This document shows, piece after piece, positions 1 to 59,720 of a stretch of DNA of 64,000 nt. The position numbers and the translations under genes were made by a program. This DNA comes from Massospora cicadina (Eukaryota; Entomophthoromycota; Entomophthoromycetes; Entomophthorales; Entomophthoraceae): contig JAKSZP010009575.1 in the NCBI GenBank assembly GCA_022478985.1, positions 25,763 through 89,762 on the forward strand, read 5' to 3'. The first letter of the stretch is position 1, and every line of letters begins with the position of its first letter. The notes beneath the pieces were generated by a model. The model was not told the DNA's origin and ran no database searches. It was given only the letters and a program-made list of their open reading frames with translations.

Positions 1-914
1 CATAATAGCATGAAGACTATTGTTTAAGTTGAGTGCTCTTAAAACCACGTTGAGTATAAGGTTCAATGCTAAACAGGTGCTTCTTCCTCTTAAAAATATC
101 TCTAGAATGAGTGGGAACTCTTATTTTATTCACGCTTAGCCAGCAGAGATCTGACAACAAACAAGATAACCTCATGGATATCTGATCCTTGCACTCTTAT
201 CCCAAAGAGTAAACTATACAACTAATATATAAACAATTAATTTTTATAAAATTAAGATATTCTTTATTCACTCAAAAAATCAAGGAATTTATAGGGGATC
301 CAGCGATCAACTGTTCTGTTGGTGCCTCACTGGGAATTGGCAGCTGTTGCCGGAGGATTACCCTCTAAAGTTTCACCCATAAGGATTCCTCATTCACCTA
401 GTTGGATTGCACCGCCAACTAGAGTCATGACATCTTCATGGTCAATTTTGGAAAGTGTCCCAACAATGTTTAATCAACCTCAGCGGAGTACCCTCTTTAG
501 GCTATCATTCTGCTTAGGTAATAGGATCTTTACCCATCAACTGAAATCTGCAAAACCTAAAAAGATAAACTGCAAGTTACCCTCAGAAGCATTGCCAATA
601 CTTCAGTACTACACATAGATTCTCAAGTTGATAGGTGACAATTCACAAGCAACTAATGATTAAAGTATCAATTATTATAATCAGCAATTGAAGTGTAAAA
701 CAAATACATTATCAGAAATTGTCCCCAACAAAACATTGCAATCCAGAAGATCAACACTAGCAGATTGGTAAAATTTTTTAGGGTTAATTCCCCAAACAAT
801 AGTTATCATTAAAGATGATAATTCCCACATCCACTGGAGGATATGATTCCCTATTGGGAAAACAGATATATGGAATTTTATGGCTGGGTAATATAGCATA
901 TCAAAATCTTAACA
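1..914 (-). repeat. Gypsy B 3' LTR, cut by the window edge
   Basis: This is the 3' LTR of minus-strand element B. Its sense strand begins TGTTAAGATTTTGATATG at 914, and the purine-rich tract expected before a 3' LTR lies at 915-921. It matches the second B LTR at 17403-18474 at roughly 90% by eye in the centre, for example over 380-600. It carries the TATAAATT box near 286-293, the TGGGTAA hairpin block near 515-540, and part of the U5 stem-loop at 3-22. The distal U5 end lies outside the window, so the target duplication cannot be read. Confidence 0.85.
3..22 (-). other. U5 stem-loop (B1 copy)
   Basis: On the + strand a stem AATAG, loop C-ATGAAG-A and stem CTATT are visible. This is one of about ten copies of a stem-loop that sits 40-150 nt from the 3' end of several different LTR families in the window. 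The loop ATGAAG (CTTCAT in the sense strand) is conserved while the stems vary. Confidence 0.5.
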
Positions 915-2035: not shown

Positions 2036-2084
2036 TGTAAGGTGTTAGAACTTGTAACTGGTAGTGACTTAATTGAGCACCAAT
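2036..2084 (-). other. Primer-site leader fragment next to LTR A1
   Basis: Read on the minus strand, ATTGGTGCTCAATTAAG directly follows the LTR end at 2085. It matches the leader of element A at 9206-9250 (shared ACTTGTAACTGGTAGTGAC-like block) and the E leader at 54509 onward. A primer-binding leader on this side and a polypurine side at 3173 means the LTR at 2085-3172 has internal sequence on both flanks. Confidence 0.6.
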
Positions 2085-3172
2085 TGTTAAATGTTTGGAA
2101 TTTGTTTCCTCTTTCTAGATTAAAACTTCCTTCAGCACCCCTTGTTCAACTGCACAGGTTTCTTATATGTGCTTTGTTTGACTTGTTGATAGTAGATTAT
2201 AAGGGCAGTAGTAGCATGAAGACTAATACTCTAGTTGAGCTTCTGATAGCCAAAATAGTTATTAGGGCTAACGCCAACCTGGCGCTTGTCCTTACTCTTG
2301 AATTTACTGGAATTGTAGGGAATCCTTCCCTATTTCATCTGGTAGAACTTATTTTAAGATAAGGTTCAGAGGTTCTTCTTCCTTCTCATCATGCAGAGTC
2401 CGCGGAGATCAACAATAACATAAACAAAAGATATTCTTGTCATTCCAACTCTAATCACAAAAGTAAACATTATAAATTATATAAATTCACTGACAAATGT
2501 TTATTTCAATAAGATCTGTTTTATTATAAAAAACCAATAATAATTTATAGGTGAATTCAGCGCACAACCTTTGGTTGGCACCCTAATTGGGAATGGCAGC
2601 TGTCGCCAATGTTTTAACCTTCCAGGGTTATTAAATTAACGATCTTCCTTATCAAATTAATTGGGTTCTCTCCTCTAATCAATGAGACCTCTTCTGAGCT
2701 GAAAAGAAGAACAGTCACAACGTCCTTGCTCAAATCCCATTGAATTAGCCTTATTTGGTAACAACCCGCATAGGTAATGGGTCTCTTACCCATAAACAGA
2801 AGTTTGCAATTAAGAAAAGGTTAACTTGAAAGTTGCAGTATCACAGGCGGCATTATTCACCAGCAACTAATAAACCCTTAGTTGATTGGCATTTAAACCT
2901 GATCAACTCTTACAATTCAATTAGGTTATCAATATTGAAATTAACTCCCTAATCACTTGTTTATTCTCGGGGATGATCCCTAACAAAACACTCATCAATC
3001 CAGCAGATATTAACTTGGTGGATCAATAAATACTTGCTGAGAATATCTCTATAGACAATAGTAATCATATATACAATTGATACCTCAAACATCCACTTGT
3101 GGGATGAATCCCCTAGTGAACAATCAGACAAATAATCAATGAAGCTGGTAAAATGGGCAAATTATCCCAACA
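2085..3172 (-). repeat. Gypsy A LTR (left copy)
   Basis: This 1,088-bp LTR reads TGTTGGGATAATTTGCCC on the minus strand from 3172 and ends in TTTAACA at 2085. The sense-strand tract before it (ending ATTGAGGG) is the expected polypurine end of A. It contains the TATAAATT box (2543-2550), the TGGGTAA hairpin block (about 2775-2800) and the U5 stem-loop (2207-2230). Compared with the right A LTR, the middle (about 2630-2970) is nearly identical while both ends are much more diverged. Confidence 0.88.
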
Positions 3173-3839
3173 CCCTCAATTGACCAGATTATCCAGCAAT
3201 GAAGATTTTCTGGGAGCATACACCGCTTCAATCCTGACTGAGTCTGCCAGAATGGTTAAAAATTTAAAGGTCTCTTGGTCCATCTCCACTCCTTGCTTGA
3301 TGCATCTTTGATTAGTTCTTCTTCTTTGTGCAGTTCTTTTCTGTGTCCTACTCACTGCCACCTCTGTAGAGCGCAGTTCCCATGGCCACCTGCTGTGCCA
3401 GCCTAGTTTGGGTGTTCTTTCTGATAAAAGGTCTGTAAAGTTTGTTTCCCCCAGGTTGTATTATATGACACCTTATCACTTAAAGGATCTTCTCAGGAAG
3501 CTTCCCCAATTCCTTGTTTCCTGTAACCTCCCAGGCTGGGCCTCATTTCTTTAGGGTCTACTCTAGAAAAATTAGTTTCAACCTGTCCTGATTCTATTGA
3601 TATTTTTTCTTCTTTCAGCGCCTTAGGACTACTCATGATGGACACAGTCTCAACTGAAGTTAGTCCTACCAACAACATAAGGGCACATTACCAGATGCTT
3701 TATGATAAAAAATAAAATTGATATAATATATATATATATATGCATTTTCATCTTCTAATCTATTTTTTCTTCATGATTTTTATCTTATATCAATTTTTGT
3801 ATTTTTTTCCTTATGTTGTTTTTTTTGCAATGAGACTTA

Positions 3840-4079: not shown

Positions 4080-5270
4080 ACTTTGTATGGACCCAGTTCA
4101 CTACATAACCATCCACAATGTTCTTAACTGTGTAGGCATCAGTTGTCAACTTGGTGATAAATACAGACCCAACCACAAAGCATCCAGTTTATATCTTTAT
4201 CTAAAATTCATGGGTGACGCAATAGGCTACCCTATCCCCTATATGGTACTACTGTATTGCTGGTCAGTTCTTGTTGTCCGTCAACTTCACTTTGATCCTT
4301 TTCTTTAAGGTGACATTGAACTCCTGCAATTGCAGTTTGATCATAATACTAGTCAGTCAGTTCAGGTATTAATCAGTACTCATCCCAGCTGCTGACTCTA
4401 TGACAGAATACAAAATCAGTGGTAAGGCTGCCCTCTGTCCATAAAATAATTAAAACGGCGTTTTTATTGTCACCATATGATAACTTATGTTATAGGCAAA
4501 AAATCAACTTGGGTAATTTCCTCAAGCGGAACTTTTCCCATGACCAATATTCTTAGCATCACAGCTAGCGTTTCATTTACTCATTCCATCATTCCACTCA
4601 TTTTTTGCCTATATGGAGCTGATACCACTCCTCAGATCCTCATCAATTTTATTAAGCCTCAGAATTACATAGGAGGGTACAGTTGGTTCCATTGTCACTC
4701 AAGATAACTTGAGGGCATCCATGCTGGTATATCATTTGATTTAAAATGAAATCTAATGTGCTCACAGCATCCACTTTGCTCAATACTTGGTTTCAAACCA
4801 TCTAATTAGATGGTCTATTGCCACTACAATGTATTTTGTGCCTCCTATAATGATAATCAGGGGTTCCATCACGTTTATTAAAATATGTGCCATGCAAATA
4901 CAGGGTTTACTAGCCTGTATCCTGTTATATTCTTACAGGGATTGTGGAGTTGGTATTCCATACAACAGGACGGTAGTTGGTGACATCATAGTTAATTGAT
5001 TCCCAGTACTATTGAAGATAGTCCATAGTTTTCCTTAGGCCATCGTAGCTGACAACTTTGTGTCCAGCTTGGATTATTTCCACTCGTTCTGACAGCTTTG
5101 GGTAAAAGTTTTTTTCAATTGTTTTGAATATTTGTCCATTTTTCATCTCATTGTTTTCCATCACTTTTCTCAGCACACCTTGAATTTTGTAGGGTTTGTC
5201 CCCAACTTTGCCTCCAATTATTCTTTGAAATAATTTGTACACTTTATGATAGACAGTTTGGACTGCATGT
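4080..5270 (-). pseudogene. Gypsy A integrase remnant
   Basis: Integrase inserts the element cDNA into chromosomes. Minus-strand reading from about 5270 gives a segment near 5009-5242 (KLSERVEIIQAGHKVVSYDG) matching the integrase N-terminal region of element I. A degraded catalytic core follows, with [13 protein letters not shown] and a preserved VILSDNGTN motif around 4660-4730. The segment near 4087-4308 lies in the C-terminal part. Stops in every frame show it is dead. It matches the plus-strand integrase of element I at 39290-40340. Confidence 0.7.
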
Positions 5271-9250: not shown

Positions 9251-9268
9251 TGTTGAGAACCAATTGTT
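9251..9268. repeat. LINE target-site duplication, left copy
   Basis: The 18-mer TGTTGAGAACCAATTGTT is repeated exactly at 14549-14566. It spans the junction between the A leader (primer site) and the first bases of the A LTR, which fixes both ends of the LINE. Confidence 0.92.
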
Positions 9269-9333
9269 TAAATTTAAATTTTAAATTTATTGTGGGGAAA
9301 GCTGACCATGGGATGGACACTTCCGAATATGAC

Positions 9334-10061
9334 TCAGATGAGACAAAACTTAGTACCAGGGGAGGCACCCCAGAGAAGCAATGCTATCTCTTGTTGCCAG
9401 CGGGAACGCCACTTATGGGAAGGGGAGGGAACGTGTGTAGGGGGCGTAGCCACTATTGAGCACGTGTGGAGGAAGGGGTCTGATTTGATGAACCAGACTG
9501 GGAACCAGGAGGAGACCAGCTGCCGGCGACGTGGTGGGAGATATCCAAACATCCACGCTTGAAAGTGATCCACCAAATGAGACCGGAATCTGTGGACAGC
9601 TTCAGGGAGGGTGGGGATGGATCCGGCGATGGCATCCAAGACAATCGTGTGGATAGTCCACATGGCGATTGCAACCACCAGAGCACGAAGGGAGGGTGGG
9701 AGGGGGAGGCCATTGATGAAGCAAACATATATCTTGACAGACTGAAGGGATGTGTTTGATCCTGGCCTAGCAGACGTTGGACTTCGCGCCATATTACTTT
9801 AGAGGTGGGGCACTTCTCCAGGCGGTGGAACAGCGTTCCATATTGGCCACACACGACGCAGGATGAGTGTAAAGCGTTAGAGTGCTCAGCTGTACGATAC
9901 ATCCGCCTCAGGCAGCGCCACACATGGGAGCGGACTTGAGGCTGCAACAGAGGATGGTGTGCGTATTTCCAGATAGTCTTTTGGGTCTCAGTGGAATAAG
10001 GGATGTCCATCATGTCCAGGTAGTCCACCCTGGATAGGACTTGGGGTCGAATGGGGATCAC
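9334..10061 (-). pseudogene. LINE ORF2 C-terminal zinc-finger (zf-RVT) region
   Basis: The minus frame at 9453-10061 shows VRSHVWRCLRRMYRTAEH then SSCVVCGQYGTLFHRLEKCP. This is the C-X2-C-X(n)-H-X(4-5)-C zinc-binding region placed after the RT in plant- and fungal-type L1 elements (zf-RVT family). An overlapping frame (9334-9792) continues the C-terminus after a frameshift. The region is thought to bind nucleic acid, but the exact role is not settled. Confidence 0.75.
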
Positions 10062-10079
10062 GCCATCATGGATGGGTAG

Positions 10080-11720
10080 CCCCTGTACCTCTTGTGTGAA
10101 CTGAGGAGAGGGGCGGCCTCTTCAGGTTGTATGTCCACTAATACGAATTCTCCACTCTGCGCTTCGCATGGAGAGTAGGATTCGTTTGTAGTGGGTTTTG
10201 GTCCCGTGAAGACCTGTGGCCAATGTGTGTGATGCGAGGCATTTCATCAGGGAGTGGGGTTTTGATGGATTGTTGAGGCCCAAGGCTTGGGAGAAGTTGG
10301 AGTGGGCCGCGCGGGACCAGTGTTGGGATGGGAGTGTAGGAGCAGTGACGGCCGCAATTCAGGTGCCCAGGATCTTGGCGGCATGGGCTTTGAAGTCAAG
10401 TAGGCCCATGCCACCATGATGATGAGGGCCAAACATGACCTCTAGCCGTACTGGTGGAGGGCGGCCTGACCAAAGCCAACCTTGTAGCAAAGCATACAGG
10501 GATTTGAAGAAGCTTGGGGTGAAGGGGATGGCGTGGGCTCCAAACCAGACTTTGGATAGGAGCATAGAGTTGGCTAGAACAACCCTGCCAGTGAGGGTAG
10601 TAGGGTGGGCTCTGAGAGAGGCGATTCGCTTTGTCACGTTGTCCAGTATATGGCACTCCATTACTGCTGACGCGTATCCACCTGCCTCCAACCACACGCC
10701 CAGATGGCGTACCGGTCCTATGGTAGGTCATGGCACAAAGGGGAGCACCAGTGGAGCGGTGTATTTTGAGTTAGTAAGGCGTGGATGTGGGCGAGCAGAT
10801 GGGCCGGGTTGGGAACTACTTGCTGGGGCCCAGCAGTTCTGAAACTGACTAAGGAGGATGATTTCAGTTTTGGAGGCGTTCAGTGCCGCGTTGCTTACCC
10901 AGGAATATTCCTGGATGAGGGCTTCAAGCGCGCGTGCATCTTTGTTATTAGACACCCCCACCACGCAATCATCTGCAAATGCCATCATCTTGACTGGGGT
11001 TTGGCCTGGCACATGGACCCCAGTGAGTTGGGCATTCACAATTCGCAGTAGTGGGTCAAGGCTGAAGTTGTATAAGAGTGGGCTCAGGGGGTCCCCTTAT
11101 CACAGGCCCCTTTGAGGATGGACTACTTCCGTTAGGAAACCTGGGCCGCGCACTGCCATTGTTGCAGATTCCATGAGCAGCATCACCCAGTTAATGAAGC
11201 AGGGAGGTAGGCGGAATTGTTGGAGGCAGGCCCTAAGGTATTCCCAGTTTACTCTATCATAGGCCTTTTGTTGGTCCAAGAATACAAGTGCCCCAGAGGC
11301 TGTGGACTGACACACATTAGCCACAGAGTGCACGTTATCCCAAATTGACCTTCTGGGGATGAAACTGAATTGTTCTGGAGAGATGGTGGCAGATGCTACA
11401 GTCCCTAAACGGTTAGCCATGATTTTTGTTAAAATTTTGGTGTCTGTGTTTGTTAGAGAAATGGGGCGCCAGTTGGCTAAGTCTAGCCTATCCCCTTCTT
11501 GAAGAGTGTGACCGTAAAGGCCTCATGTCCTCCTGGTAGGAGGCGCGTTTCCAACAGGCTTTGGTTGAGTGAGGCTAGCAGCAATGGGGATATATATTTA
11601 AAATATTTTTTGTAGAACTCATATGGAATGCCATCTGGGCCTGGGCATTTTTGGTTTGGCGCACCGCGAATGGTAGTCCATAATTCATTTGGAGTAACTA
11701 AATTCATTATTTCCGGGTAT
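10080..11720 (-). pseudogene. LINE ORF2 reverse transcriptase domain
   Basis: Minus frames in order show NQKCPGPDGIPYEFYKKYF (11483-11707), PEQFSFIPRRSIWDN and LVFLDQQKAYDRVNW (11100-11420), then MMAFADDCVVGV with the catalytic FADD box (10728-11039). After that comes a thumb-like segment with LTGRVVLANSMLLSKVWFGAHAIPF (10359-10697). This is the full RT motif series of non-LTR elements, which prime cDNA synthesis on nicked target DNA. Single frameshifts separate the segments and the catalytic aspartates remain. Confidence 0.9.
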
Positions 11721-11855
11721 CAGAAAATGGTGCGGATATGAGCTCTGTCAAGAAATTCTGCCATTTTGGCCAGCTGAATTGGTTCGGCTCAGTATAGCTC
11801 GGAGTAATATATTTGCATTTTGATTGCCACTTCAGCCAGTGTGTCCACAATAGAA

Positions 11856-13040
11856 TTATCCGATTTTCGCACCTGTGTGCAGGCTACACTCTGGCGTGGT
11901 GCAAAATTTTTTTGAAGAAGTATGCGGTGCACTTGTCGCCTTTAGTGATGCATGTGGCCCTGTATTGGACACAAACCCGATGTTTGTGTTGCCTTTCAAG
12001 TGCGTTGAGGTGGGCTGCTGCCTCCGCCCACTTCTGGCCCCATGCAGGGCTATATCCTGAGGCTGGAATATTGGACTCCAAGTGGGCCAATTCTGCCAGC
12101 GTGCGCGATATAACTGCCAATGTGGCTCATGAGCGTCTGGATGAGAGATGGCGATAGTGGCGGATGGTGTCTTCTTTGAAAGTTGCCCATGTGGAAATGG
12201 GGTCCGCGCAAAATGGTGCAACAAACAATTTTGCCAAAGTTGCCTCTTCCACCCATGTGGAAAATCCTGGCGACACGAGCTCTGGGGGGCGGATTTTGCA
12301 CCAATGTGGGGCCTTTTCAACTGTGATGGGTAAGTGGTATGTTATCGAGACCAGTCAGTGGTCAGAGAATTCCATTTTCATTGTTTTGAAGTGAGAGATG
12401 TGGGGTTGGAATTTCGCTGGCACTAGAATGAGGTCGATGCAGGTCATGGACCTTAATTGGCCATTGTGGACATGGGGATGCGTCATGTTTTTGAGCAGTG
12501 GGGCATGTCGCAGCAGCGCATCCATTAACCCAAGGGTGGCTTTTAGAATGCGTAGTTCTACGTGACCCTGTGGGGCGTGGGGTGAGGGCGGCCACCAGTC
12601 CGTTGGTGAGGTTAGCCAACAGTTCATGTCGCCAATTAGGAAAAAATTGGGGGGTAGCGGGAGGTATTTGACCAACAAAAAATTCCCGACGCTCTTGTGC
12701 ACCGTTTGGGGCATAAATGTTGACGATTGTGTGTGCAACATCAGCCCATGAGTTGGTGACAACGAGCACTCGGTCATTTAGGAATGTTTCTGAAGATGTA
12801 AATTTGAAAAAAATTGTTTTTCTGAATTAGCACCCCATAGTGCTTCGACCAAAAGGATAGAGATGGTAGGAGCATTGTCTTCTAAGCTTCCTCGGAACCT
12901 CATGGACAGTGGGTTTCCTGGATGGCCAGGATATCCACAGGCAAATTGTTTTGTAAAAAACTCAGTTTCTTAGCCTGGGACGGGGAGGCCTTGAGTCTGG
13001 TGATATTCAGCATCCCTAGAGTGAAGGTTTCCCCCATTGC
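11856..13040 (-). pseudogene. LINE ORF2 AP-type endonuclease and linker
   Basis: Minus frames from 13036 read LNITRLKASPSQAKKL and then DILAIQETHCP, the conserved N-terminal motifs of apurinic/apyrimidinic-like LINE endonucleases. FFLIGDMNCW follows near 12640. The linker toward RT continues as an open frame at 11856-12320. This enzyme nicks the target to start insertion. There is an in-frame stop after ETHCP and a frame change near 12770. Confidence 0.82.
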
Positions 13041-13183
13041 ACCTTAGGTGCGAGGGGGTGGGCCCCCTGGCCCACCAGCCTCTTCCAGGTCCCCACGGGC
13101 TTTCACAGCAGCATGGGTATTAGCAGTGATGCTATTGGGGTTTTTGTTAATTTTTGTGGAAAGGGTCGCATTGGCTTTGGCCT

Positions 13184-14456
13184 TCACTTTTTGTTTTCCC
13201 GACGTCGGACGAATTTTTTGCGGTGTGTATAAGTTTGGTGCACCGTCAAGTGGGGCAAAAATTTTTTTTTGGTTGGGATAGGTCCCAAGTCAGTTTCGAC
13301 CAGGGCTTGGGTGCAGCGATTGGGTGAGATCAAATCTCCCATCAGATCCTCAGATTGAGTGGCCCATTCAGCATGGGCCTCCCAATCTGATTGGGTGATG
13401 GATTCCTGAGTTGCTTCCACCGCGAAGGTCTCCATGTCCTCCTGGCGTTGTGAGTGTGGGATGGTGGTGGTGACCTTGGCCGCTTCCTTGGCCGCAGTCC
13501 TATGGGCCTGCTTGGCCTTCTTCCACTCTTGCAGGGAGATGGGCTTTACCAATAGGTAGCAGCCTTGTGCTCCCCATGAAAAGCCTCCTTGGTGCTTGCG
13601 GTTGGTTTGTAGTGTGCCTCTCCGCTGGCCATAGCCGCTGAGGGGTGCTCTTGGAATGTGATGCCCTCTTTGATGGGGCATGCATGTGCCTTATGGCTGA
13701 ATGCATCACAGTGGGTGCAAATGGGGGGCGCGCTGTCCACAATTACCCAGAATGGGTGGGTGGTGTGCCCTGCAATGTCAATAAAGGTGGAGTGCGGGAT
13801 CTGGGTTAGGTCCTTTGTGATCTCCTTGGTTGGGGTCAGAACTGCAATGGCTTTGCCAGTGCACAGGTGTGGCATCAGCATGAAACGTTACATTTCAAAA
13901 GATTGTATTTCGCTGTATATGGTGAGACCATCTTTCAGGTGTTGCTCCAAAATGTCACGTTTTACTGAGTAGGCAAAAAGTCAAATGTGAGGAAAATTTG
14001 GTTTGATTTTGTCCATCTGGTGTGTTTAGTTTTGACGACCTGTTGCCCTTTGGGGAGGTTGACCACTATGCGCACCGCTGCAGCCTTGTCTGCTACTATT
14101 TTGCTTTCAAAACCTAGGTCCAGCCAACTGCACGACATGGAGTGAGGTGCAACGTACACCGCAGTCGGGAAAATTTTGTGTACATCTTCACAAAATTTTT
14201 CCCATAGGGCCGTTTTTTGGATGTCCAGATACACACGGACTCCAAATTCCACCGACAAAAGTGGCTGGGAATGTGGCGTGTTGATGTACTGGTTGCATCG
14301 TGCTTGCCACACGAGTATCTCTGGGGAAATTGTGACCACCGGTTTTTTTAGATTTTTTTCTATTCTGCCAGATTCTCTGGGGCGTTTTCGAACGTTAGAG
14401 GCCGCGGGCCTTCCGCCTGCTCCTCTTGCCTTGCTTGCCCAACTGCTCCCAGACAT
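13184..14456 (-). pseudogene. LINE ORF1 with CCHC knuckle
   Basis: The frame starts at 14456 (MSGSSWASKARGAGGRPA) and runs to 13962. After a frameshift it continues at 13546-13881, with FWVIVDSAPPICTHCDAFSHKAHACP giving a CX2CX4HX4C zinc knuckle, then into an Ala/Gln/Glu-rich tail (13184-13681). ORF1 proteins bind element RNA and form the particle. The basic Gly/Arg N-terminus and central LDLGFESK block have counterparts in the half-LINE ORF1 (FDLGFTCE, and HMFWVHVEGGQMICLSC before its own knuckle). One or two frame breaks make this copy probably inactive. Confidence 0.82.
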
Positions 14457-14548
14457 GGGCGCAGACTAATCCCCTCTATGAGATTATCAAACTAGATTTA
14501 GTCTTGAATTGAATGGGTTGAAAAAGTGTTTGCAACGAGAAAGAAAAG

Positions 14549-14566
14549 TGTTGAGAACCAATTGTT
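14549..14566. repeat. LINE target-site duplication, right copy
   Basis: This is an exact second copy of TGTTGAGAACCAATTGTT. Its last four bases are the first bases of the A LTR at 14563, so the LINE entered precisely at the LTR/primer-site boundary. Confidence 0.92.
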
Positions 14567-15648
14567 AGATGTTCAGGCTTTGTTTCTTCTTTCTGAATTA
14601 TAGATTGTTTTGGCTCCCTTGTTCAACTGTACAGGTTTCTTGTATATGCGTTGTTTACTTAATGCTTATATACTATAATGGATAGTAGTATGAAGACTGC
14701 TAATCTTTTTGAGTTTCTGTTAGCCAAGATAATTATTAGGGCTAACGCTAACCTGGTGCTTAGCATAATCTTGAATTCATCTAGAATTGTTAAGGATTCT
14801 TCCCTATTTCGTCTGATAGATTTTACCCTAGGATAAGGTTCAGAGGTTCTTCTTCCTTTTTGTCATGCAGAGGCCTTGGAGATCAACAATAATATAGACA
14901 AAGAATCTTCTTGTTCTTCCAACAAAATCACAAGAGCAAACAGTCTAAGTTATAAAAATTTACCAATAAATGTTTATTTCGATCAGATATGCTTTAATAT
15001 AAAAAATCAAGTGGAATTTATAAAGTGAATTCGGCTCACAACCTTTGGTTGGCACCCCAATTGGGAATTGCTGCCGTTGCCAACGTTTTAACTTTCCAGG
15101 GTTATTAAATCAACGATCTTCCTTATCAAATTAATTGGGTTCTCTCCTCTAATCAATGAGACCTCTTCTGAGCTGAAAAGAAGAACAGTCACAACGTCTT
15201 TGCTCAAATCCCATTGAATTAGCCTTATTTGGAATAACCTGCTTAGGTAATGGGACTCTTACCCATAAACAGAAGTTTGCAATTAAGAAAAGGTTAACTT
15301 GAAAGTTGCAGTATCACAGGCGGCATTACTCACCAGCAACTAATAAACCCTTAGTTGATTGGCATTTAAACCTGATCAACTCTTACAATTCAATAAAGTT
15401 ATCAATAATGAAATTAACTCCCTAATCACTTGTTTATTGTTGGTGATCATCCCCAACAGAACACTTATCAATCCAGCATATTGTAATCTGATGGTTCACT
15501 ATAGAATTTTTTGAGAATATTTCTCCAGAGGATAGTTATTGTTTATACCATTGGTAACTTTAAAATCCACCAGTGGGATTAATCCCTATTGGACAAGCAG
15601 ATAAATCATAACTGATGAAGGTAGGTAAGGTGGGCAAAAATCCCAACA
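14563..15648 (-). repeat. Gypsy A LTR (right copy, 5' LTR)
   Basis: This 1,086-bp LTR has sense-strand ends TGTTGGGATTTTTGCCC (at 15648) and CTAACA (at 14563). It lies upstream of the A leader. It contains the U5 stem-loop (14681-14705), the TGGGTAA hairpin block (about 15245-15270) and a TATAAATT-like box near 15020. A central block of about 340 bp is almost identical to the left LTR, but the flanking parts are clearly more diverged. Confidence 0.88.
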
Positions 15649-17402
15649 CAAGGTTTTTTGCCAAATGCTGAGCTTCTTCTTCCTTCTACTGAGGAAGCAC
15701 AAAATTCTCATATCCTTTTGGGTTCTTACACCAATATTAGGTGGCATTATTCTACCAATTAAGAGTCTGAATTAGTTGTGTAGACAAATCAGAAAATAAT
15801 TTCTTAATCTCACTCATTGTTAAGGATTATTTACATCAATTTTCACTTGGAGTAATTCTTCTGTGCTTACAGTGGATCTAATTTTTCCGCTATCTGTCAT
15901 ACATATGGCCAGCAACCTCTTTCACAATTTTGGGTCTATCTACTTCACTTTTGCTTGAGTAATAATTCAACATCAAAATGTACCATCTGGCAAAGAGGAT
16001 CAGGTGCATCATCCTCCATGAGTAATCAGAGGTATTAATGTTGTCATACAATATATCTAGGGGAATAGGGTTGGCCGCGGTGCTATATTGTTCCTTATCT
16101 AGACCAAGGGTCTTTTTTAAACTCTTGACTTTCTAAGCCTGAAGCAAAGCAACTTGCTTTCTCATCAATTTTTATAAATATTGAGCAATTATATGCCTAA
16201 GTTTTCCACATATGTTACAACAAACTGGATCTCTATCTCTCTTTTTTGCCCTTTTGCTTAATACCATCAAACTTTGATTCTGTTGTTCATTATTGACTTT
16301 GGCAAATTTCACAATATTCTGAGATTTCGTCTTGATCACCATAAAGGTTTTATTTGGAGCTTCAAATGTTGCTCCAAGCATCTTAAGATGGCCCATTATC
16401 TGTGAGGTCGAGGTTTGATTCACCAATGTTGAAGCCATAATCTAATGCAATTAATGGTAGGGCCAAAGCGCCGCCTGCATAGCTATGCATGCATTGAAAT
16501 CAGAAAGTACTTCGCCCCTTCCAGGATCTGCTACTCCTGATAAAAATGGTCAGCAAAGGAGACAAGGTCTCATCTCTTTGGAATTGTATACCCGTAAATT
16601 CTTGTTTGCAATTGGCCATTCTAGTAGGACTTTTGAATTCAGCCATGATCAGTTCTTTTGCTTAAACATACGACCAATTGTCCCCGTTAAGGGGTGGCAA
16701 CACCATATTCTAGCAATTGGTGTTAAGGCAATTTATAACAGTTACCACTTTTTGGCCGTCCACATAACTGAACATCATCATCTCGAAAGGATGGAAAAAT
16801 GCTAGGGGCGTTATCCTGGTGAAAGGAAAGCAATTTTGGTGTATTCTGGAACACTTCAGTTGCTCCACTAGAAGGGAATTACCGCCCAACAATCCAGATA
16901 GACATAGGCGCTGTTTTATGAGTCATCAACAACATGGCAGCGAACAATTTAGTCATAATTTATGGATGATGCTTCCTTCCTGACTGGAGTTTTAGAGATA
17001 TAATTGCAAGCTTCATTTGCCTCAAGTTAAGCACAATCAAACTTTTTATTTTCTAACTCCTCAATATGCTTCCACATCCTAGCCATGTCCTCCTGAACGC
17101 AGCAGAAACGTTCTCTGTCACGTCACAATCAGACTTTTGGAATAAAAATTCCCTAATTATACTCCCTTTCCACTATAAAGGGGCAACCTTCCCATAGAGG
17201 TTGTTATTTTTTCCAAACTTGGTCAATCTCATCCTCTGTCTTAGTTACACGCTCTTTCTAAATAGTGACATTGGCTTGTGACGCTGAGCTCAACATGTTT
17301 TCAATGGTGTCCAACTCCATCTAGAGCTTCTGAATTTTATTATATAACATTATTGATTTAATTTATATTTTTAACTTATCTATCACTGTAGATAGCACCA
17401 AA
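15649..17402 (-). pseudogene. Gypsy B gag remnant with CCHC knuckle
   Basis: This is the 5' internal part of element B. On the minus strand the leader TTTGGTGCTATCTACAG follows the LTR at 17403, then gag (WMELDTIENM-like start near 17320, open parts at 16710-16892 and 16172-16438). The knuckle reads CCNICGKLRHIIAQYL, with the last Cys replaced. The phrase ATFEAPNKTFMVIK parallels A gag. B breaks off at 15649 at a point equivalent to about 7460 in element A, before protease. Confidence 0.72.
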
Positions 17403-17517: not shown

Positions 17518-17541
17518 AATAATAGTATGAAGACTATTATT
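17518..17541 (-). other. U5 stem-loop (B2 copy), perfect 9-bp stem
   Basis: On the + strand the stem AATAATAGT, loop ATGAAG and stem ACTATTATT form a perfect 9-bp hairpin. It is the clearest AT-rich version of the stem-loop shared by the LTR families. Confidence 0.65.
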
Positions 17542-17543
17542 TA

Positions 17544-17574
17544 TTGGGTTGGGACCATCTAGTACTATAAAAAA
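17544..17574 (+). mobile_element. Mini-retroposon copy 1 (31 nt)
   Basis: A 31-nt insert with core GTTGGGACCATCTAGTA and a run of A at its 3' end. It is flanked by the exact 13-mer AGACTATTATTTA at 17531-17543 and 17575-17587. The left duplication is the 3' arm of the U5 stem-loop. Tail and duplications point to target-primed insertion by LINE machinery. Confidence 0.78.
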
Positions 17575-18474
17575 AGACTATTATTTAAGTCGATTTCCCT
17601 TAAAGCCACATTTTGTATAAGTTACTGTGCTAATTTGGTGCTTCTTCCTCTTGATGATATTTCTATACTGGGAAGGAACTCTTCCTTACTCTCTTCATGC
17701 TGATCCAGCAGAGATTTGATAACAAACAAAATAACTTAAGAATGTCAGATCCTTGCACTCTTATCCCAAAGAGTAAACTATACAACTAATATATAAACAT
17801 TTAAGTTTTTTCTCAAACTAAGATCTGTTTACTTACTCAAAAATCAGGGGACCTATAGGGGATTCAGCGACCAACTCTTTTTTTGGTATTTAACTGGGTG
17901 TTGGAAGCCTTTGCTGGAGGATTACACTCTAAAGTTGCACCCATGAGGATTCCTCTTTCATCTAGTTGGATTGCACCGCCAACTAGAGTCACGACCTCTT
18001 CATGGTTAATTTTGGAAAGTTTCCCAACAATCTTTAATCAACCCCAGCGGGGTACCCTCTTTAGGCTATCATTCTGCTTAGGTAATAGGATCCTTACCCA
18101 TCAATTGTAGACTGCAAAACCTAAAAGGTTAAACCTTAAATTATCCTCAGAAGCATTGTCAATCATTTAGTAACTATACATAGTTTCCCAAGTCAATAGG
18201 CAAAAAACCACGATAAACCAAATATCAAACTACCAGTTATTATAATCAGCAATAAAATCATAAATTAAATACATTAGCAGGAATCATTTATAACAAAACA
18301 TTGTCAATAGAAGAATACACTAGCGGATCAGTAAATATTTTTTAGGGTTAATTCACCAAAATGTTATCATTAAAAATGATAACTCCTACAATTTTGAGCT
18401 TTGATCCCCAATTGAGAAAAACAGATATATGTGATTGAATGTCTTGTTAATATGGTCATATCAAAATTCCAACG

Positions 18475-19601: not shown

Positions 19602-20747
19602 TGTAAAACTTTACTAAAGAGTTGATTATCAGTTGTCAACCCAGTAACCTTTTTACTGCACAGGTTCAGTTTCCTTGTGCACTTGCGTTGTAAGAATATA
19701 TAATCCAATAATAGTATGGAGAATATTATCCGTAGTTGAGTTAGAACTATTTTCAGGCCCAACGCTTCAGCCAGTATTTCCAATTAAATACTCAATAGTT
19801 GTACTCATAGAGATTCATTCCCTATATTACTGTCCACTCAATCTTTGTCCAGATCCTCTGATGGCATTCTCCTTTGTCCCAACACACAGTTGGCAGTGAT
19901 CCCTTAGTCATGGTTCCCTTCATATCTAGATCCCCACTCGGATCTCTACTCTTCTTCTAAGAGTCTACCAATTATTGCCTTCTGCAATAATATCCTTGAG
20001 ATGGAATCTTCACGCTAAATGCTGATAGTCTAACTATTACCAAATCTACAATAAAACTATTAATGTTCTAAAGTAGCAGTATGTATAAGTGTATGTATTA
20101 ATGTGTGTCTTTTATTATAGTGAATCCTAGGGAATTTATAGGGGATTCGGCCATCTAACCCTTGGTTGACACCTCTTTGATGAAACAGCAGCTGTTGCCA
20201 TTGAATCACCCTTCCTCATCTCAGCAGCGATGGTCTTCCCCATCCTGGCTAGGATTCCATCATTGGACATCCTCAAGACCTCAAACAGAAAGAGTTGTAA
20301 ACGTGTCCCTATCGTTTTCCTCTCGATCCAAGAGAACCAACCATAATTGGCTAGCGACCTGCTTAGGTAATGGGACTTTTTACCCATTATGGCAGGTCAC
20401 TTCATCAACCAATTGATTCACTAGTTGCAGGCAGCATCACTCGCCTTGCAACTATCATACATTCCCAATCAGTCAGTGATGAAACCCAACTGATCCCAAT
20501 TGGTACACCTGATAGTTAATCACTATCAGATGCCCCTATTTCGTCAGCTGCTCTGCCCGATGAGATATTAGGTATTCATCCATATTGATCCCTGACGGAT
20601 ACAACCAGACGAATATCCCAAAATCCCCTGAATGTAGTTTCTCTGAAATTTGGGCCAACTGATTTTTAATTCACTTCGCTTTAGGGGATTTTCCCTTAAT
20701 GACACTAGGTAATCTAGAAGGCTAAAATTTGGGCAAAAATCCCAACA
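19602..20747 (-). repeat. LTR C1, probable solo LTR
   Basis: This 1,146-bp LTR has sense-strand ends TGTTGGGATTTTTGCCC (20747) and AGTTTTACA (19602). It is closely similar to LTR C2 at 62751-63904 over its length. No primer site or polypurine tract is seen on either side, and the flanking 5-mers are ATATA (left) and ATATT (right), four of five matching. A solo LTR left by LTR-LTR recombination fits best. It holds the TGGGTAA hairpin block (20358-20390) and an imperfect U5 stem-loop (19707-19730). Confidence 0.78.
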
Positions 20748-20775
20748 ATATTAATTAGAATAGAGCCTTGAGGTA

Positions 20776-20892
20776 AGGGGTATGCAAAATGAACTTCTTT
20801 TCTTTAATAAATTTCAAATAATTGATGTATTTGGAGCTATTTATTATAAGTTAGCATGGGATGGGATATTAATTATTACCTTACTCTAAAAA
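20776..20892 (+). mobile_element. 117-nt A-tailed retroposed insert
   Basis: The 17-mer AATAGAGCCTTGAGGTA occurs exactly at 20759-20775 and again at 20893-20909. The 117 nt between them end in CTCTAAAAAAA. This is the signature of a retroposed RNA with a target-site duplication. I see no Pol III A or B box and no match to the LINE 3' end, so the source RNA is unknown. Confidence 0.7.
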
Positions 20893-20897
20893 AATAG

Positions 20898-20928
20898 AGC
20901 CTTGAGGTATTCATAGTACCTCAAGGCT
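20898..20928. other. 12-bp perfect inverted repeat
   Basis: Stem AGCCTTGAGGTA, 7-nt loop TTCATAG and stem TACCTCAAGGCT. The 117-nt insert and its duplication sit in the 5' arm, so the hairpin was the insertion target. The role is unknown. Confidence 0.6.
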
Positions 20929-30620: not shown

Positions 30621-30695
30621 ATATTAATCCAAACTAAATTAAACTTGGAACTACTCCTTCAGATGTTTTTCATTAATGAGTAGAGCCAGATTGGT

Positions 30696-30742
30696 ACATC
30701 GATGAATCCCCCCTCAGGTTGGGACCATTTAGTATAAAAAAA
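30696..30742 (+). mobile_element. Mini-retroposon copy 2 (47 nt)
   Basis: A 47-nt insert with CCCCCCTCAG, core GTTGGGACCATTTAGTA and a run of A. It is flanked by the exact 17-mer AGTAGAGCCAGATTGGT at 30679-30695 and 30743-30759. It is the longest of the three copies at the 5' end (extra ACATCGATGAAT). Confidence 0.82.
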
Positions 30743-30759
30743 AGTAGAGCCAGATTGGT

Positions 30760-39130: not shown

Positions 39131-39239
39131 GATGAGTTATTCCAGAGGATGATTGAAGGCAATATTGGGAATGAGCCCAAAAAATTCAAGATGCACTAAA
39201 GAAAGCGATGAAAAAACCGAGATGAAAATGGAAAGTTAT

Positions 39240-39274
39240 TCCCCCCCTTGAGTTGGGACCATCAAGTAATAAAA
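39240..39274 (+). mobile_element. Mini-retroposon copy 3 (35 nt)
   Basis: A 35-nt insert in the pol of element I with a C run, core GTTGGGACCATCAAGTAAT and A tail. It is flanked by the exact 15-mer AAAATGGAAAGTTAT at 39225-39239 and 39275-39289. It splits the linker between RNase H and integrase. Confidence 0.8.
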
Positions 39275-39289
39275 AAAATGGAAAGTTAT

Positions 39290-48028: not shown

Positions 48029-49703
48029 CACCAGGGAATTTTAATTCTCTGACATCAGCAAAAAATCCTAAAATTGGTAATAGAATAAATAATAATGATA
48101 AATAAAAGGTATAAAAAATAAATTAGGAAAAGGGCAAAAAATAGGTTTTGAAGGCTCTTATTTTGTTGTTGTAACAGTCAGGGACATTGTTGCAGTGAAA
48201 TGATGAGGGCGTCAAAGCATTCAGTTTATCTTTTCCAATTTTGTCATTAGAGAACAAGAAGCATTGATATGGAGAAATGGAGAAAGCATTGAGGCGTTTG
48301 TTTGGCTGTTCCAATTTTGTTGTTAAAACAGTGAGAAGCATTGGTGAAGAGAAATGGAGAGAGTGTCAAGGCAAACAGCTCAGCTAATATAAGTTCTTCA
48401 ATAAAATAGCGAGAAGTATCAGTGCCATAAAATGGAGAGAATGTCAAGACATCAGGTTTGGTTATCCTAATCTTGTCATTGGAACATCGAGAAGCGGTGG
48501 CATGGAGAAATGGAGAGAGCATTGAGGTATTCATTTCAGCAAGCCCATTTTTAATGGGAGGAGACTTCAGTTCAGGTACAGAAATAAACTTGACCTCACT
48601 AATAGCAGGTTTCAAGTTTTTTTTGCGATTTATTTTCAGGGTGTTCACTTCAGTGCAGAAATGAAAGGTTCATTTGGCTTGAATAAAGTTAGAGGACTTT
48701 TTATAGCTTCAGCAGAGGAGAATAATTTCAGTGCCAAAGCATTTGGTTCAGTGGGTCCATTTGAGCAGATGAGAGCCTCAGCATTGGGAAACAAAACAGC
48801 GAGGCAATTTTCTAGTTTATCCGTTTAACTCAACTCATCAAGAGTTTTGACCCAGCTGCAATATTAATCTCAAGATTCTCATTTCAGGAAAATGGATAGG
48901 GCAGTAAGAATCTTTTTTGGAATTAGCTGAGATAAGCCCAAGTTTTAATAACTTATACCAGGTTTTCTCTAAGATAGGATGGTAGTTTTAGCAGCTCTCT
49001 CACAGGAGTTTCTCTAGCATTGGAGTAAAAGAATCACAATTTTTAGCGTCATAAAACATATCTAATCCTTCTTCTACCGCTTCATCATTTTTTGAGTTCA
49101 CAATAATGATCTAAAATTCTTTTAGCGGCATGTTTAATATAATTTTTGATTATATTGAGCTGTTTTTCACAGTATTTCTCGTCACATACCCATTAATTTC
49201 ATCTTCTACTACTTTCATGGCTGTTGTCATCATTTAAAAATAGTGCATAGCTCAATTTATACATAGCACTCATTTTTTTAGCACTAGTGGCGCCTAACTC
49301 AAAAAGGGGGGCTCTCCACACATCTTTATTTGCAAAAGGAAAAACAAAGGGGATATTCATAAGTAAAGAAATTTCTAACATGGCTCTTTTGGCTAATAGC
49401 CTAAGATGCCATATCAGAAGTGGAAAAGGGGATGAGGGAATCTACATCCAGTGTATATTGAAGGACATGTGACATTGCAGACAGAACTGGAGTTAGGGCA
49501 TCAGCGACATGGGGTTGGAGGTTGTCAAGATTTGGTAACCCTCATTGATGAGGCCAATAGTATGCATAGCCTTGAGATACTGGGCAAGTTGGAATTCGGC
49601 ATGCTTGATCAACTCTGGAACACATAAAAAACTTTTTAAATATATTGACAGGTTTGGGGGTAATTCAGGTTCACAGCAACAGTTTAGCTGCATCCATGCA
49701 TGC
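48029..49703 (-). other. Degraded region with tandem repeat; possible old gene
   Basis: This is the flank between half-LINE 2 and element E. Minus frames at 49199-49381 (LGATSAKKMSAMYKLSYALF) and 49493-49693 (AEFQLAQYLKAMHTIGLINE) have an amphipathic helical look, vaguely Sel1/TPR-like. I cannot support a family. The left part is a tandem repeat described separately. No LTR or pol motif is visible. Confidence 0.35.
48160..48540. repeat. Tandem repeat, about 78-bp unit, five diverged copies
   Basis: Units share GAGAAGCATTGG, GAAATGGAGAGAG, a CATTGAGGC/TGTCAAGGC block and CCAATTTTGTCATT, starting near 48175, 48250, 48327, 48405 and 48482. On the minus strand an open frame (48247-48648) reads as 26-residue repeats around SPFL-TNASHCFNNKI. 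On the plus strand the unit encodes WRNGESIE. Which strand, if any, was coding is unclear. Confidence 0.7.
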
Positions 49704-58560: not shown

Positions 58561-58679
58561 TTTTCCAGAAGATGTCTGATGGAAAAATTGGGAATGATCC
58601 TTGAGTGATCCAAAGTGCACTTTAGAAAGTGATGGAAAACACCGAGACCAAATATGGACAAGTTTTTAAAATGATCAAT

Positions 58680-59720
58680 GGAAAACAATAATTATTCACA
58701 AGACCGTTGTAACAATTAGTAATTATTCAAGCCACCCATAAGTTTGTCAAGCATGGAGGCCTGAAAAAGATGACTGACCACATTTCCCAGTACTATTACT
58801 GGGAGTCTATCAACTATGATGTAGCGGATTATCTGGATTTCTGAGTGGAGTTCCATTTGCACAAGCCTAAAAAACATAAATGGATATTGATTGTTCTGCC
58901 TTGGATTTGCCTGGCATACAGCGTCCAGTGATGTGATGGGACCATTAACCATGAGCACAGGGGGAGTCAAATAAATCATAGTTGCAGTTTGACCATCTGA
59001 AAAAATGTGTTAGGGTGAAGGCCCTGGCAAAAGTGGATGCTACAAGAACTGCAATGTTTACCCTGGATCAAGTCATATACAACCATGGATACTTGCAAGT
59101 CTTGTTAAGCGACAATGGAATGAATTTTACATCCCACGTGATCCTTGGGTTGAATGAGATAATGGGGATCTGAGGAGTCTTGTCAGTACCTTACCAGCCA
59201 GAGATGAACGTATTGGTAGAACGGGTCAATGGAACTCTGGCTGTGATGCTGAGGAAGCTGATCGCAAAGAAAACTCTTCCACATGAGGAACATACCTCAG
59301 TTTGGTGATGGTCGCATATAACATAAGTCATCATATGGCGACGGGAAAGACGCCATTCAAATACTGTATGGAAGGAAGGCTGCATTACCGCCAATTCTAT
59401 ACTTGATGGTTGAACCAACATTGGGGATGAGTGCTGAGAAGTACCTACTCCAATTGTCAAATATCCTTATTGAGATGCAATTACAAGCATCTGATACAAC
59501 CTTGAAGAAGAGAATCAAGAAAAAATGATGGCTTTAAGAACTAACGGGCATTATCAGAATACCACATAAGTGATAAAGTTGCCTTTTGTGATAAGAATGG
59601 TTTCAGAAAAAAAACAAGTTGGATGTATTGTGGTAGGTCCATTTGAGATTATTGCCACGACAGCAAGGGACGCCTAATCCATCAAGAACCTCTTGGATAG
59701 AAGGATTGTGAATTGAAACC
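58680..59720 (+). pseudogene. Gypsy E integrase remnant
   Basis: Plus frames: HKFVKHGGLKKMTDHISQYY (N-terminal region), then 58982-59173 with VDATRTAMFTLDQVIYNHGY and LLSDNGMNFTSHVILGLNEI (second catalytic Asp block). YQPEMNVLVERVNGTLAVML follows near 59200-59250 (catalytic Glu block). The ends are frame-broken. It is homologous to the A and I integrases. Confidence 0.82.

Follow-up and report, generated by a model that had tools for sequence, protein, structure and literature searches.

A stretch of 64,000 nucleotides of Massospora cicadina DNA (the window) carries three short A-tailed inserts, each between direct repeats, and the question raised by this locus is what RNA the inserts were copied from. 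A sequence-only reading of the window had proposed an ultra-short retroposon family of 30-50 nt, either a mobilised small RNA or the heavily truncated 3′ end of one longer RNA. The analysis showed that the inserts are most likely the last 13 to ~45 nt of a ~6.4-kb, putatively L1-like LINE, which makes them a case of extreme 5′ truncation rather than a small-RNA family or SINE. Inserts and flanking repeats were all present at the positions first reported, and the features in window coordinates are as follows.

17530..17543, + strand: left copy of the target duplication of insert 1, an exact 14-bp repeat AAGACTATTATTTA, with an empty site at window 1-60
17544..17573, + strand: insert 1, made up of the final ~23 nt of the LINE and the A-tail, and starting 7 nt to the left of GGGACC (97% match over 31 nt with the LINE 3′ end of copy L022)
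17574..17587, + strand: right copy of the target duplication of insert 1, exact 14-bp repeat AAGACTATTATTTA
30679..30695, + strand: left copy of the target duplication of insert 2, exact 17-bp repeat AGTAGAGCCAGATTGGT
30696..30742, + strand: insert 2 plus the A-tail, starting exactly at the ACATCGATG boundary beside the AATAAA of the LINE (88% over 51 nt to the LINE 3′ end)
30743..30759, + strand: right copy of the target duplication of insert 2, exact 17-bp repeat AGTAGAGCCAGATTGGT
39225..39239, + strand: left copy of the target duplication of insert 3, exact 15-bp repeat AAAATGGAAAGTTAT, with empty sites
39240..39274, + strand: insert 3 plus the A-tail, whose start is the C-run in the LINE 3′ end (a 90% match to that end over 41 nt)
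39275..39289, + strand: right copy of the target duplication of insert 3, exact 15-bp repeat AAAATGGAAAGTTAT
1..60, + strand: empty-site paralogue of insert 1, a one-copy target with only ~12 nt of its left flank inside the window
5105..5175, - strand: empty-site paralogue of insert 3, a one-copy target in a related repeat
58615..58720, + strand: second, more diverged and less clear empty-site paralogue of insert 3

All three window inserts arose by true insertion. Counting both strands, 4 window sites combined an A-run with an exact repeat (at least 12 bp, within 170 nt) behind it; 60 dinucleotide shuffles gave 0. One-copy empty sites were present for 2 of the 3 inserts (1 and 3) in paralogues of the surrounding repeats, and BLAST returned no paralogue of insert 2 in the window. 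The 3′ part was common to all three inserts and the start points differed. The target copies are exact, as the sequence-only reading had stated; at copy 1, where it gave 13 bp, the maximal exact repeat is 14 bp (17530-17543 / 17574-17587). The fourth A-run/repeat case (20759-20909) had a 3′ end unlike the LINE core; this 117-nt insert with an A-tail and a 17-bp target duplication, AATAGAGCCTTGAGGTA, belongs to another retroposed RNA or LINE family. The hairpin described at copy 1, in a putative LTR, was also present, as a 9-bp inverted repeat AATAATAGT..ACTATTATT at about 17518-17541. The same stretch recurs with one or two mismatches at 19706-19729 and 54383-54362, and it lies at the edge of several window repeats.

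The terminus of the inserts also ends a ~6.4-kb LINE that has an A-tail and target duplications of the same size, and extreme 5′ truncation is therefore the most likely origin. Two copies, L022 and L025, had ~6.46 kb in common at 97.6% identity, with the same 5′ and 3′ ends, and their 15-bp target duplications (AGATTGGTCATGGCA and AATCTCTTCCCTGGC) lay directly before the common 5′ end ATCTCTTTCTGCTAAGC. Copy L023 had a 13-bp target duplication and ~12 further nt ahead of that 5′ end, copy L024 had 484 nt upstream of the core with a 17-nt duplication containing one mismatch, and no target duplication was found for the long copy L040. The L022 ORFs matched an endonuclease (Exo_endo_phos, PF03372, 2.7e-10) and a reverse transcriptase (RVT_1, PF00078, 7.8e-34), both above cut-off, and zf-RVT (PF13966, 8.7e-6) at 26.7 bits, just below the curated cut-off of 27.5; the domain order and the zf-RVT match suggest an L1-like element. 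When the 3′-terminal 1,004 bases of the element were compared with the window, the matches were the three inserts only (E 1.6e-8 to 1.1e-10) and one 14-nt match at E 0.65. The copies share their 3′ end and finish in an A-tail, which was broken in 1 of 100 (L085), and the insert variants TTGGG/TCAGG and CATCG/CATTG recur in the long LINE copies. The search for longer members that had been suggested thus reached LINE copies of up to ~6.4 kb with their own target duplications, and of the two proposed origins the truncated 3′ end was upheld, while the mobilised small RNA was set aside because the LINE itself carries the terminus and the variants are common to inserts and long copies. The 5′ part of the source LINE also contained two ~376-bp tandem repeats that are ~94-96% alike (L022:2493-3245, L025:2407-3160).

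The window holds a LINE of its own (9269-14548, minus strand), which is frameshifted and L1-like, with RT and zf-RVT domains, an AATTTA-like tail and an exact 18-bp target duplication AACAATTGGTTCTCAACA (outer limits 9251-14566). It was ruled out as the source of the inserts by its different 3′ end, and its RT is ~38% identical to that of the source LINE at the protein level. The element sits between two copies of a ~1.1-kb repeat (2073-3173 and 14551-15649, 84% alike), and a Massospora cicadina protein, 90% identical over 30% of a fragment of this LINE, is co-linear with it.

The family is a repeated one, as the sequence-only reading had supposed. In 1,469,884,898 bases on 16,968 contigs, the 14-base core GGGACCATYTAGTA had 20,393 exact matches (10,135 + 10,258) versus 10 (4 + 6) for the reversed control. 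The exact sites numbered 30,833 for ACCATCTAGTACTAAA (control 0) and 6,837 for ACATCGATGAATCC (control 28), and the counts dropped with distance from the tail in the order ACCATCTAGTACTAAA, GGGACCATYTAGTA, ACATCGATGAATCC; all are exact matches only, and window insert 3, with one change, falls outside them. The viral contig collection gave 0 matches with the tail and 1 without the tail, which was judged to be due to chance, and a Ty3 protein piece confirmed nothing there; a genome-contig collection gave 0 matches. In protein searches, a Ty3 piece drew 6 distant hits and the zf-RVT piece none. The available part of the genome paper describes a nanopore-based assembly of 1.488 Gb with 92% transposable elements and 2,079 annotated tRNA genes (PMC9584336), a count high enough to suggest tRNA-like repeats. 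A LINE expansion in Massospora cicadina after a Ty3 burst is described in an Entomophthora paper, and the words SINE and retroposon are absent from its main text as far as this was available (PMC11105155).

For the length profile, the first 100 listed of the 20,393 exact-core places were read (contigs C1-C13; exact cores only), with length classes assigned by script and ambiguous rows by eye. Half of the copies (50/100) started 0-9 nt left of GGGACC and so contained 16-25 nt of the LINE, and 5 started in or near the C-run (L018, L020, L061, L082 and L101). A further 27 had their start no more than 3 nt from the ACATCG boundary, beside AATAAA (~41 nt of the LINE), and 1 (L011) started ~16 nt past this boundary. 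The remaining 17 continued into the LINE as longer copies, of which 12 were read to ~180 nt only, one of these (L045) being aligned to 77 nt. Among 5′ ends more than 9 nt from the core, 26/52 fell in one 8-nt window (p ~4e-21 if uniform over 10-180, a crude null computed on 26/52, the final assignment being 27/50). The ~41-nt end at the junction of CAATAA and ACATCG kept its sequence position though the C-run inside the insert varied in length, and it is therefore defined by sequence or structure and not by a counted length. Such preferred end points went beyond what could be seen in the window at first reading, and the size of 30-50 nt given there applied to part of the copies, since 50/100 had only 16-25 nt of LINE and some inserts only 13. 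One core copy with a duplication (L088) carried a ~74-nt A- and G-rich addition before TTGGGACC, likely a product of template switching or slippage.

Shorter copies were seen among the ACCATCTAGTACTAAA places, where 41 of the first 100 listed were without the GGGACC core; 3/62 GGGACC places in the same contigs were missing from the ACCATCTAGTACTAAA list. Four of these 41 were read (L028, L029, L036 and L037), and all 4 were flanked inserts of ACCATCTAGTACT plus an A-tail, with 13 LINE nt; one had an extra A, and the L028 duplication differed by a one-base indel. Two of the 37 unread places adjoin a ACATCGATGAATCC place and are thus apparently copies of ~41 nt or more in which the core has changed. 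Roughly 1/9 of the recognisable copies are estimated to be long, from 17 long ones among 100 GGGACC copies and from the site numbers of 30,833 and 20,393, on the assumption that the unread places resemble the four that were read.

A nearby duplication at a score of at least 9 was found by script in 76/100 core copies, each at its own site. Outside this test stood 15 copies flagged long, of which L022, L023 and L025 have exact duplications and L024 a near-exact one; for 9 other copies of the 100 the script found no duplication, and 2 of them (L052 and L070) are long by sequence. A first pass on 97 of the 100 copies gave 73 short copies with duplications of 10-24 nt, most often 16-17, exact in 58/73 and inexact in 15/73. 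The duplication had A at position 1 in 66/73 and at position 2 in 64/73, with T at -2 in 43/73 and T or G commonest at -1, where A is excluded by how the duplication edges are drawn. The window inserts by themselves had suggested an ATG/A nick motif; this was dropped in view of the base preferences in the 73 copies. Extra bases were present at the 5′ junction in 17/73 short copies.

The 3′-terminal 107 nt of the LINE folded as RNA with a z of -2.71, and 1/200 shuffles was as stable; two hairpins were predicted, and the linker that separates them contains the ~41-nt boundary. A longer LINE 3′ piece gave a less striking fold (z -1.39, 18/200 shuffles), and the outer pairs of the upstream hairpin were broken in some long copies (L023, L040). 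An RNA hairpin as a family feature of the inserts was rejected, as the three inserts alone folded no better than shuffles.

The LINE identity, the common terminus, the duplications, the empty sites and the preferred 5′ ends are directly supported, and the origin of A-tailed, duplication-flanked inserts from LINE machinery, claimed at the outset, was borne out by the duplications, the empty sites and the LINE terminus. We regard it as fairly probable that the inserts are products of target-primed reverse transcription (TPRT) by the ~6.4-kb L1-like LINE, in which synthesis mostly stops early, with a roadblock at the edge of the poly(A) signal. The LINE endonuclease would nick the bottom strand at T-rich sites, as the leading A of the duplications on the top strand indicates. 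Annealing of the A-tail would follow, and first-strand synthesis would begin at the LINE 3′ end. In most copies examined it would halt once 13-25 nt were made, or else at a fixed position of ~41 nt, where AAUAAA has its downstream edge. The short cDNA would proceed to normal second-strand cleavage and joining, leaving a duplication of ordinary size. The ~41-nt roadblock may be a protein still bound to AAUAAA, or the upstream hairpin CGCCU..GGCUC-UUAG-GAGCC..AGGCG at the polymerase entry. T-rich nick sites, the A-tail and the duplication size are those of ordinary LINE TPRT, and the departure lies in the ends at a few points. A roadblock at AAUAAA leaves the 13- and 16-25-nt ends unexplained.

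A second, related family bears on the roadblock, and its copy in the window is as follows.

49273..49340, - strand: 3′ terminus of an element from a second, related family, ...GCGCCACTAGTGCT-A7 (nhmmer E 0.18 taken alone; terminus shared with L024, L033 and L039)

No exact target duplication was seen at this copy. The terminus of the family (CACTAGTGCT-A) was present in four copies in the sequence examined (window 49340-49273, L024, L033 and L039), and a fifth match, L031, looks unrelated. Copy L039 is short, has a 16-bp target duplication and starts just after the place of the AAATAAA of its family (n=1). Support for a stop at the poly(A)-signal edge from this family thus comes from this one copy, against three (L024, L033 and the window copy) that extend past their AATAAA.

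That the 5′ ends are polymerase stops rather than template ends, with a roadblock as the ~41-nt stop, is what the pattern of ends suggests; genomic sequence does not tell a polymerase stop from a template already ending there. The serious rival is a template RNA that was already short, i.e. LINE RNA cut, or chewed 5′ to 3′ as far as a protected 3′ hairpin or RNP, whose poly(A) remnant was copied to its end, and we hold this to be possible though doubtful. It would account for the sharp 5′ end at ACATCG in 27/100 copies, which lies ~5 nt upstream of the predicted 3′ hairpin in the single-stranded linker, for the 16-25-nt ends, which fall in the loop or 3′ arm of that hairpin, and for the precision of the ~41-nt end, which also fits nuclease-trimmed RNA. 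In the part of PMC10830420 available, human L1 ORF2p is described as highly processive, and cleavage of L1 RNA or of the intermediate is preferred as the cause of 5′ truncation. However, a hairpin as weak as the folding of the inserts indicates is a doubtful exonuclease block, and the 13-nt inserts would require RNA fragments barely longer than their A-tail, which are hard to imagine as templates. The polymerase stop is preferred for this reason, and because the series of 13, 16-25 and ~41 nt resembles a set of early aborts with a single barrier after them.

It is quite improbable that the inserts come from a non-autonomous short element or small RNA, in effect the shortest SINE, which has a gene of its own and is mobilised in trans. 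The one 5′ end common to 27/100 copies resembles a defined RNA, but there are several 5′ ends rather than one, LINE-length copies carry the same terminus, so that no existence separate from the partner LINE was seen, and the insert variants also occur in long copies. No known RNA was found either: Rfam gave a single match below threshold at insert 2 (E 2.7, on the opposite strand) and none in the LINE 3′ end, and neither Rfam (insert 2, LINE 3′ end) nor ARAGORN with the bacterial code setting (window) returned a SINE head. The 3′ ends of tRNA or 5S rRNA, which the inserts presumably resembled, were dropped as a source after Rfam and ARAGORN gave nothing useful. Chance repeats, an assembly artefact or later deletion within longer LINE copies can be given hardly any credence. 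The published assembly is indeed nanopore-based (PMC9584336, as far as available), and the script assigned no duplication to 24/100 copies, 15 of them flagged long, but the shuffles and the one-copy empty sites speak against chance, the 76/100 duplications each lie at their own site, and intact duplications with shared 5′ ends are not what deletion would produce. Of the other outcomes that the sequence-only reading had itself allowed for, an origin of every hit from the 3′ part of a single LINE agrees with the 100 of 20,393 hits read, though no name was found for this LINE; chance matches as an explanation of the flanking repeats did not hold. With early polymerase stops as the preferred reading, a bolder proposal, put forward only tentatively, is that 3′-end processing proteins, or host restriction on the 3′ RNP, routinely bring reverse transcription of this LINE to a halt where the poly(A) signal ends. 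Nearly 9/10 of recognisable insertions would then be stubs of down to 13 nt, forming a fossil record of abortive TPRT with possibly tens of thousands of events.

The causes of LINE 5′ truncation are described as not well understood (PMC10830420, available part), and stubs that end at preferred points between duplications, possibly in the tens of thousands, would give this question fixed coordinates. Inserts of 13-45 nt are probably short for repeat annotation, and the stub class may be overlooked. Each stub adds a duplication and an A-run, and thereby length variation, and the stubs could reveal in fine detail which insertion sites are preferred. Among the listed titles and abstract openings of open-licence papers, none was found to describe LINE insertions below 50 nt in very large numbers and with preferred ends.

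Among known systems, SINEs and tRNA-derived retroposons are likewise short and A-tailed, with duplications, and borrow LINE machinery. Unlike these, the Massospora case yielded no separate RNA gene, and the LINE itself carries the terminus. In the available part of the study of zebrafish ZfL2-2 in DT40 cells, 5′ truncation is tied to the hand-over of cDNA to end joining, and loss of NHEJ lengthens the inserts, but no discrete classes of tens of nucleotides are described there (PMC2666801). Short retrotransposed pieces of sequence downstream of an L1 also escaped earlier detection, but they are not the last tens of nucleotides of the L1 itself, and the portion of that account available describes no pile-up at preferred points. 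There is also a likeness to 5′-truncated human LINE-1 insertions, for which the accessible text reports TPRT, an A-tail, duplications peaking at 14-16 bp, a T-rich nick, and 5′ junctions that show microhomology and extra nucleotides (PMC2912911). New human insertions are often a few hundred bp (PMC10830420, available part), whereas most in the Massospora sample are below 50 nt and their 5′ ends pile up. The human survey, by its available text, counted insertions of 50 bp to 10 kb only (PMC2912911); stubs of less than 50 nt would have escaped it, and because of such a lower limit in at least one survey similar stubs in other genomes may have been passed over. While 5′ truncation of LINEs is known, the pile-up of sub-50-nt stubs at preferred ends appears to be the new part.
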